From assembly GCF_001592735.1 (NCBI RefSeq), contig NZ_LUKE01000001.1, forward strand, positions 2,059,184 through 2,123,183: a stretch of DNA of 64,000 nucleotides. The letters are read 5' to 3'. The notes below the pieces were generated by a model. It was not told the origin of the DNA, made no database searches, and saw only the letters and a list, made by a program, of their open reading frames with translations. The stretch is from Bdellovibrio bacteriovorus (GTDB lineage: Bacteria; Bdellovibrionota; Bdellovibrionia; Bdellovibrionales; Bdellovibrionaceae). Both the position numbers and the translations under genes were made by a program. Positions 15,809 through 18,552 of the stretch are shown here, piece after piece (position 1 is the first letter of the stretch; each line of letters begins with the position of its first letter).

Positions 15809-16228
15809 ATGGGAGAGATTTTCCAACTGGTTTACTTCAGTGAAGCCGCGGATGATCTCTCTTATACCGACATCAAGGAAATTCTTGAAGTCTCAAGAAC
15901 TCACAACGCCAAGGCCGAAATCACGGGTTTACTCATTTATAAAGACGGCCACTTCTTGCAACTTCTAGAAGGCCAAGAAGAAAAAGTAAGAACGACCTTA
16001 GAGCGAATTCGTCATGACGACCGCAACTACAAAGTAAAAATTCTGATCGAAGGCCCGGCCAAACAAAGACTCTTCCCCACATGGTCCATGGCCTTCCACG
16101 ACGGCGACATCGCCTCAAACCCAAATCCTGCAGTCGAAAAACTTTTCACCGCCCCAAAAACAATGAAGCCCGCAGACATCCTGCCGCTGCTTCAATCTTT
16201 TCGCGACCACACTGACGAATTTCACTGA
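15809..16228 (+). CDS. Stand-alone BLUF blue-light photoreceptor
   Basis: 139 residues, essentially one BLUF domain, which binds FAD and senses blue light. The key residues match AppA spacing exactly: Tyr9, Asn33 (+24) and Gln51 (+18), with Trp92 and Met94 in PTWSMAF at the semi-conserved positions. The flavin hydrogen-bond switch should therefore work. There is no output domain, so signalling must go through a partner, as in PixD-type short BLUFs. The C-terminal 40 residues form a helical cap. Last gene before the 737-bp gene-free region. Confidence 0.92.
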   Translation: MGEIFQLVYFSEAADDLSYTDIKEILEVSRTHNAKAEITGLLIYKDGHFLQLLEGQEEKVRTTLERIRHDDRNYKVKILIEGPAKQRLFPTWSMAFHDGDIASNPNPAVEKLFTAPKTMKPADILPLLQSFRDHTDEFH

Positions 16229-16245
16229 CCGTTCCTCACACGACG

Positions 16246-16397
16246 ATCTTTTTGGGGGTAGGGCCTTGGCTTTTTCCTAAACGGGGGACGCCATCCGGGC
16301 TCAGTCGTCGCCGTCCCTAAAGGGCCGGTTCGCGCCATCGTGGCGCCGACGAAGCCCCCTTTTTAGAAAAAAGCCAAGGCCCTACCCCCAAAAAGAT
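16246..16397 (+). repeat. Structured repeat, copy 1: conserved core inside 30-bp inverted arms
   Basis: Arms 16246-16275 and 16368-16397 are perfect inverted repeats of 30 bp (ATCTTTTTGGGGGTAGGGCC is the outer part). The core 16283-16359 begins GGGGGACGCCATCCGGGCTC. It folds as GGGCT (16297-16301) with AGCCC (16353-16357), TCGTCG (16305-16310) with CGACGA (16347-16352), and two inner hairpins: CCC-TAAA-GGG (16315-16324) and GCGCCA-TCG-TGGCGC (16332-16346). Copy 2 shows compensatory changes in both inner hairpins, which supports a selected RNA or ssDNA structure. Confidence 0.85.
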
Positions 16398-16585
16398 TTA
16401 GTGATAAACGATCCGCGAAATTCACGCGAGGGGAAACGAAAAATCAGCGACAGGAAAAAGTGGGTTACATTTTTTTTCGTGAAGAAAAAAATCTCACAGC
16501 AGAATTTAAATTTAGAAATGCCGTCATGGAATTTTTCTAGCGCAAACCAATCACAAGCGCAGCGAGTGATGTCGGATTTAGCACA

Positions 16586-16729
16586 GATATTAGAGGGGAA
16601 GTGGGGGCTTTGTTCTAAAGGGGGCTTCGTCGGCGCATGGATGCGCGAACCGATGCCATTGGCAGCGGCGACGACTGAGCCCGGATGGCGTCCCCCGTAG
16701 AGCAAAGCCCCCACTTCCCCTCTAATATC
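16586..16729 (-). repeat. Structured repeat, copy 2 (opposite orientation, different arms)
   Basis: Arms 16586-16612 and 16703-16729 are perfect inverted repeats of 27 bp (GATATTAGAGGGGAAGTGGG is the outer part), extendable by 5 bp with one wobble. Their sequence is unrelated to the arms of copy 1. Read on the minus strand, the core begins GGGGGACGCCATCCGGGCTC and keeps TCGTCG/CGACGA and GGGCT/AGCCC. Hairpin 1 is now TGCC-AAT-GGCA (16654-16664) and hairpin 2 GCGCAT-CC-ATGCGC (16633-16646). Both are re-paired versions of the copy 1 hairpins. Confidence 0.85.
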
Positions 16730-16965: not shown

Positions 16966-18552
16966 ATGAGAAATCTTGGATTGATGACAGTGTTGCTTGC
17001 GGGGCTGATGCTCACCGGATGTTTGAGCGATAACGGCAGCACCGAAGTTCCGTCAACGGGATTGAACAACGAAGATTTCAGTGTGATCACGGATCCAAAT
17101 CCGCCGCCATCTGATAATAGTGGTGGAGTCGTCACACCTCCCGGAACGGAAATTGAAGGCTTCGACCTTAACAAAGGCGCGGTGCTTACGGCTTCCACAT
17201 CTTTGCAATTGGATTTCTTCCCTCCATTTGCGGCAGCCTATACCTCTATCTCTGAAGATGAAAAATGCAGTAGCACGGCGTGGAGAGATTACGATGACGC
17301 TGCCGTTTATAGCAGCGTTAAGAAGAATCAACTTGTCCCCATCAGCGTAAGATACCGAGATGACGACGGACGTTTAAGCCCTTGTTATGTGCGCAGTATC
17401 TACATCGATCAAATCGGTCCAAATATCGTGTTTGCGAAATATCCGACAGCACCGGTGGAAGAAGGCGCGGACGTTGAAATCATTTTCAACGTCACAGATG
17501 ATGGCGCGGGTGTTGATGCCGTCGAATGTAAGTTTGCAGGAATCAGCAAAGCTTGCGGCGCAGGTCAAAACAAAGTCATTATTCCTAAAATGGCTGCGGG
17601 CGATTACACTCTTTCGGTAGCGGCAAAAGATAAATTGGGCTTCAGCTCTTCGGGTTCAATTTCTTTCAAAGTAACTTCGCTCTATAAAAACATGGTTCAC
17701 AACGTAAAAGTGAATGAATACAACAAAGTCGACATCTTGTTTGTCATCGATAACTCGGGCTCCATGGAATACGAACAAAAAAGCATGGCTTCTCGCGTGC
17801 GTAATTTCCTTGATGTCGTAAAAGGTTTGGATTGGCAGATCGCAGTGACCACAACAGACCCAGCAAATAAAACTTATGGTGACGGTCGTTTAGTAACAAT
17901 GAAGGGTCTAACAAATACTTACATCTTGAATTCCGGCATGGCCGATGCGACATCGCGTACTGTATTAAGTAATACACTTCAACGTACCGAAACCGGGTCG
18001 GGTTCAGAGCAAGGTATTTATGCTGCTTACCGTGCCGTAGAACGTTCGGTTGCCGGTACGAACGCAAACTTTATCCGCAACGATGCTCAATTAGCCGTTG
18101 TCTTGATTTCGGATGAAGATGAATCCGCTAATGGGGTGAAAAACGATCCATCAAATTTTGTGAAATACATCCAGACTCAGTTCAACGGTCAAAAAGCGAT
18201 GAGTTTCCATTCGGTCATCACTCGTCCTGGCGACGAGGCTTGTTTAAAGGGCGAGGGTTATTCTTATGGCCATCGTTTCGCGGCGATGGCTGAAATGACC
18301 GGTGGTGTGATTGGGGACGTGTGCGCGTCTGATTATTCAGCCCAAGTTCAAGGGATTGCGGAAGGTGTGCGTAACACTCTTAAGTCGATCACTCTTAGCT
18401 GTGCTCCGATCGTGGATGTTAGTCATGAAGTCGTCGTTAAAAAAGACGGAGTGATTTACACCGGATCTCGCCAAGTGCAAGGGTTGAATGTGGTGTTTGA
18501 CCAAATGTTGCCTGCAGGCAATTACGAAGTTAATTATTCTTGCTTGAAATAG
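16966..18552 (+). CDS. Lipoprotein with von Willebrand factor A domain
   Basis: 528 residues with lipobox LTGC (Cys near 19). A Ser/Pro/Gly-rich spacer to about residue 60 is followed by two Ig-like or bacterial surface-type segments. A VWA domain begins near residue 255: VDILFVIDNSGSMEYEQ carries the MIDAS motif DxSxS, and SDEDESANG is a later metal-proximal loop. Such lipoproteins bind protein or surface ligands through a metal ion at the MIDAS site. A C-terminal strand-rich tail has paired cysteines. Monocistronic, with a terminator directly after it. Confidence 0.85.
   Translation: MRNLGLMTVLLAGLMLTGCLSDNGSTEVPSTGLNNEDFSVITDPNPPPSDNSGGVVTPPGTEIEGFDLNKGAVLTASTSLQLDFFPPFAAAYTSISEDEKCSSTAWRDYDDAAVYSSVKKNQLVPISVRYRDDDGRLSPCYVRSIYIDQIGPNIVFAKYPTAPVEEGADVEIIFNVTDDGAGVDAVECKFAGISKACGAGQNKVIIPKMAAGDYTLSVAAKDKLGFSSSGSISFKVTSLYKNMVHNVKVNEYNKVDILFVIDNSGSMEYEQKSMASRVRNFLDVVKGLDWQIAVTTTDPANKTYGDGRLVTMKGLTNTYILNSGMADATSRTVLSNTLQRTETGSGSEQGIYAAYRAVERSVAGTNANFIRNDAQLAVVLISDEDESANGVKNDPSNFVKYIQTQFNGQKAMSFHSVITRPGDEACLKGEGYSYGHRFAAMAEMTGGVIGDVCASDYSAQVQGIAEGVRNTLKSITLSCAPIVDVSHEVVVKKDGVIYTGSRQVQGLNVVFDQMLPAGNYEVNYSCLK

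Follow-up and report, generated by a model that had tools for sequence, protein, structure and literature searches.

Genomes of Bdellovibrio carry a palindrome family that is real, genus-wide and, as far as the literature covered shows, undescribed. The typical element measures ~190 nt and consists of a conserved folded head closed by copy-specific arms of 25-40 bp; among the copies read, the fold of the head is conserved and its sequence largely so. We judge it reasonably probable that these are DNA palindromes whose arms are rewritten by template switching, whose head is selected as folded DNA, and whose dispersal was an old, non-autonomous spread.

Two copies lie in the window, the 64,000-nt stretch of Bdellovibrio bacteriovorus DNA analyzed here, and we located both as the initial annotation had described them: structured repeats with a shared core, each enclosed by perfect 27-30-bp arms that are unrelated between the copies. 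Copy 1 (16246-16397, plus strand) has a 30-bp left arm (16246-16275) that is the perfect inverted partner of its 30-bp right arm (16368-16397), and between them a conserved head of 77 nt (16283-16359), formed by a closing stem and three inner hairpins, that scores 100.2 bits with our covariance model R1. Copy 2 (16586-16729) lies on the minus strand, so that the two copies face each other; its head (16620-16696) scores 87.3 bits, and its perfect 27-bp arms occupy 16703-16729 (the element's left arm, minus strand) and 16586-16612 (its right arm, minus strand). The left arm of copy 1 starts 18 nt past the stop codon of a BLUF-domain (blue-light sensor) gene (15809-16228, plus strand; Pfam PF04940, E=4e-31), a neighbor outside the element, and the downstream neighbor of the copy pair is a VWA-domain lipoprotein-like gene (16966-18552). 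The VWA-domain gene partially matches the NCBIfam MIDAS family adhesin of Bdellovibrio, at E=3e-29 and below the cut-off.

The core is not confined to the window. Searching this and related genomes with a covariance model, as the initial annotation had suggested, gave 10 copies in the 3.93-Mb source genome (similarity search plus R1) and ~280 copies genus-wide, spread over 22 of 24 genomes at 2-30 per genome. Outside the genus, R1 found 4 copies in one other genus of the same family and no match among the other members of the order that were examined; the named records that hold true copies are Bdellovibrio. Matches to a 23-base head pattern in Paenibacillus and Rhizobium look like chance, being GC-rich DNA without the remaining fold. 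No Rfam family was matched at the gathering score, which also counts against an RNA family, and a relaxed threshold added nothing beyond long-hairpin miRNA models and the like, all sub-threshold. The suspicion that no element of this layout had been described is in keeping with the literature on Bdellovibrio repeats or MITEs, in which we found no description of such a family, in a survey made without a web search and with most subscription journals uncovered.

Arms are complementary in nearly all copies: 162 of 165 exceed the 95th percentile for arms paired across copies, and the own-arm alignment score has a median of 70, against 16 for such cross-copy pairs. The arms elsewhere are thus copy-specific, as in the window, and not one common sequence. 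Many copies in the genus do carry a conserved base, inner-loop motifs and a weak consensus in their arms, and recently duplicated copies within one genome (G013) have arms in common. In the clade G012/G022/G021 the arms (for example at L132, L134, L234 and L239) have their own conserved internal loop, GTCCCATCG on the left and CGCTGTGCC on the right, which was not seen outside that clade. One head (L347; G012:1636200-1638100) bears an insertion of ~60 nt with further small hairpins.

We then considered whether the conserved fold belongs to RNA or to DNA. The initial annotation had read the differences between the two heads as compensatory substitution, and the wider family bears this out: across 96 distinct copies and 25 pairs, 96.6% of pair cells hold standard pairs, 418 cells have changed on both sides, and covariation lies above that of 500 of 500 shuffles. 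Covariation of this strength would suit a structured noncoding RNA, or a 3'-UTR or terminator RNA family read from the upstream gene, with its fold under selection; so would the copies that lie directly behind stop codons, with the 5' side of the element turned to that gene in ~70%, and the conserved GGGG/TTTT base of some copies, which would form G.U pairs in plus-strand RNA. The composition of the pairs argues against that reading. G.U fills only 6 of ~2300 head cells (0.26%) and A.C fills 10, whereas the control, RNase P RNA taken from 23 genomes in the genus and analyzed in the same way, has 171 G.U (7.4%) and 7 A.C. This contrast is somewhat inflated because RNAalifold, with which the RNase P structure was predicted, allows G.U pairs, yet it is about thirtyfold. 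Double transversions outnumber double transitions in the heads (244 against 173, with 5 one-sided changes), whereas RNase P has 47 transversions, 82 transitions and 113 one-sided changes. If both strands folded as RNA, wobble could be barred between convergent genes, but tandem genes flank close to half of the classified copies, and G.U pairs, with contexts pooled, would be too few for a separate rule at tandem sites. Because G.U is nearly absent on either strand, pairing appears to be kept in DNA, with the RNA of neither strand favored, and we consider an RNA family, a small RNA being one reading offered by the initial annotation, quite unlikely. Stems of only 3-5 bp in the head follow the same no-wobble rule; since such short stems are poorly explained by template switching alone, selection on the folded head is likely to act too. 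The complementarity of head and arms is probably held at the level of DNA, not RNA.

How the arms change can be followed between species because copies hold their position. The copies read fall into 38 orthologous groups of up to 7 genomes each, and orthologues in sister species have the same site, orientation and head, with arms that diverge by matching changes on both sides. In 33 sister-species pairs, each compared as four rows (two arms in two species), we counted 989 conserved paired columns, 149 compensated columns and 153 columns mismatched in one species. The compensated columns are clustered (49 adjacent against 32 expected; 0 of 2000 permutations). In addition, the two arms mirror each other in 10 gap columns, a symmetry that again tells against an RNA fold. 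At one site (L122/L108) the left arms are identical, and the right arm copies the left arm in only one of the two species. Template switching between inverted repeats homogenizes their arms and gives multi-base changes (PMC8604942). Since mirrored, clustered changes are what this process produces, we infer that arms are copied, and quasi-palindrome template switching is most likely what keeps them matched; selection for DNA pairing by way of unseen intermediates is a possible alternative. In the pair G012/G022 the arms have diverged further than the flanks (0.79, compared with 0.89 and 0.85); in the closer pair G001/G018 arm and flank divergence are about equal. Isolated arm mismatches include 48 G.U and 73 A.C. 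On the plus strand they are pyrimidine-pyrimidine in 149 cases and purine-purine in 24; internal loops conserved within a single clade account for part of this strand asymmetry, which is not fully explained.

These comparisons divide an early claim about the relation of core and arms. Arms do differ between copies, as had been noted, but an evolution separate from the core is not supported: because orthologues retain head and site while the arms drift in mirror, the arms are part of the element and change along with it. The same observation weighs against the proposal that local DNA supplies the arms, either as palindromes already present that the head enters or as material from which it builds them. 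The unrelated arms of non-orthologous copies would be expected from such a process, but orthologues keep head, site and orientation, recent copies in G013 have the same arms, and the single empty site that we found (G018, opposite the G001 copy L120) holds no palindrome of the L120 arm sequence. Taken together, these results make an origin from local palindromes highly improbable.

That empty site came from the comparison between sisters that the initial annotation had proposed, in which most copies proved common to both. In G001, L120 takes up 241 bp within a terminator's T-tract; in G018 it is absent and the terminator is intact. Insertion is the simpler reading of this site, which holds a TATTTT repeat, and slippage deletion between TATTTT repeats could be the alternative. 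The L116 and L196 sites of G018 are occupied in G001 too, so that copy turnover between G001 and G018 seems low. At the sister sites L344 and L346 the head is lost and the outer arms remain, which we read as internal deletions. At solo copies, target-site duplications are in no excess relative to shuffled pairs; those of old copies may have disappeared.

Copies adjoin stop codons or terminator T-tracts and seldom sit between divergent genes. The gene pairs around classified copies are convergent in 63 cases, tandem in 70 and divergent in 9, on approximate gene calls taken as the longest open frames and with 23 copies under a long spurious-looking frame left out. In most copies the upstream gene on the element's left side points toward the element. 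TTTTT runs are most frequent 60-100 nt ahead of the head, where the left arm has its outer edge; of 100 non-redundant copies, 22 have a terminator-like hairpin plus T-tract at this place, against 7 in an opposite-orientation control. The neighboring genes, among them groEL- and ribonucleotide-reductase-like frames recognized by eye, have no common theme.

The recently duplicated copies in G013 also have in common a neighboring 290-aa frame that resembles IS1-family transposases (NCBIfam IS1, E=2e-11, 44 bits, curated cut-off 100) and weakly matches an IS1/IS1595-type zinc ribbon. Transposase homologues of at least 58% identity occur in G010, G014 and G011, with the hairpin 60-110 nt behind the gene and facing it; in all four genomes an IS1-like transposon has the hairpin within its terminal inverted repeat, and in G019 the same transposon position holds a palindrome without a recognizable head. 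By eye, the ends of the transposon read AACTGATC, with AAACTGCGCC in G010, and transposon-linked copies have both the terminal inverted repeats and the 8-9-bp target duplications of IS1-type ends, here 9 bp long: GAGTGCTTT (L277), GAAGTGATC (L276) and TTAATCTTT (L278). The single-frame IS1-like transposon with AACTGATC-type ends is found at L274, L275, L276, L277 and L278, its transposases ~58-63% identical to the G013 copy. The family match, the zinc ribbon and the duplications liken this hairpin-bearing transposon to the IS1 family; its score below the cut-off, its single 290-aa frame and the long hairpin in one end set it apart.

Solo copies might accordingly be decayed ends, or miniature derivatives, of such a transposon. 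The hairpins inside its terminal inverted repeat in four genomes, with 9-bp duplications in some, speak for this descent, as does L047, which retains the transposon end sequence together with remnants of the transposase. The end sequence AACTGAT[CT], however, stands beside only 3 of ~168 copies read, and most copies in the genus are without both transposon ends and the transposase gene. Moreover, such a transposase is absent from many genomes that hold 10-30 copies, and around more distant transposase homologues (36-43%) no hairpin lies within 1.5 kb. We regard transposon descent as unlikely; the transposon may instead have captured a hairpin. As for a link to Y1/RAYT enzymes, no copy lies within 1.5 kb of any of 30 Y1 genes, and G008, G013 and G016 hold 6-14 copies each and no Y1 gene. 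Because copies adjoin no Y1/RAYT gene and occur in genomes without the IS1-like transposase, we assign no mobilizing enzyme to the family.

ERIC- and IRU-type elements are imperfect palindromes of 100-200 bp that are intergenic, old and mostly vertically inherited, and ERIC copies are alike in sequence over their whole length. The Bdellovibrio family resembles them as an intergenic palindrome that is probably old and mostly vertical, but its arms share almost no sequence between copies. Like MITEs, it is short, non-coding, multi-copy and built on inverted repeats, with a related autonomous IS in some genomes; unlike MITEs, its solo copies have neither a shared terminal inverted repeat nor an excess of target duplications. 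Its extragenic placement, mostly at gene ends and rarely between divergent genes, is that of REPs, and with REP/BIME elements and REPINs it has in common multiple copies, DNA-kept pairing, facing pairs and an association with IS elements, REPs being known to serve as IS targets (PMC1525189). It differs from these RAYT-mobilized elements in its length of ~190 nt, its complex conserved head, its long copy-specific arms, the lack of an adjacent RAYT gene and positions conserved between species. In quasi-palindromes subject to polymerase template switching, arms are kept identical by copying and acquire multi-base mirrored changes (PMC8604942; PMC7202029); in Bdellovibrio, by comparison, the process would act repeatedly on ~280 dispersed related palindromes throughout a genus. 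The family is best called an extragenic palindrome variant with arms matched by DNA-level copying.

In the mechanism that we propose, a replication or repair polymerase would switch onto the opposite arm of an extruded hairpin and rewrite the partner arm, which would keep the arms perfect while their sequence drifts. The head would be kept by selection on folded DNA, as a single strand or a cruciform, recognized by a putative protein. The family would have spread long ago as a putative non-autonomous mobile element, entering gene ends at terminator T-tracts or close by; today vertical inheritance would account for most of its copies, and internal deletion for their loss. The family is probably an old non-autonomous mobile element, with a mobility and a function that we infer. 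More tentatively, it may represent a new folded-DNA element, an enzyme-recognized head on arms continually re-synthesized from each other, whose shape is kept and whose sequence is not; we hold this possible, if doubtful. If it is true, structure would be inherited by self-templating and not by compensatory selection, and covariation alone would be no proof of RNA.

The family provides a large natural data set of palindromes with arms evolving in concert, from which one could learn, by reading genomes, how fast template switching proceeds in a bacterium and how long its tracts are. It also calls for caution: covariation statistics would call it a very strong RNA, yet the tests on wobble pairs and on transitions speak for DNA. 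Other families could be checked just as simply for a lack of G.U that is symmetric between the strands.

Facing copies like those in the window recur, ~200-720 bp apart, in at least 8 genomes, and we found the facing pair at none of the BLUF loci of other species in the genus searched to 1.5 kb. In two cases (L155 versus L041 and L203 versus L085) orthologues lie in opposite orientation. For L155/L041 we considered inversion of the hairpin and rejected it: gene distances and a weak second copy in L044 point to an ancestral facing pair, of which each species has kept a different copy.
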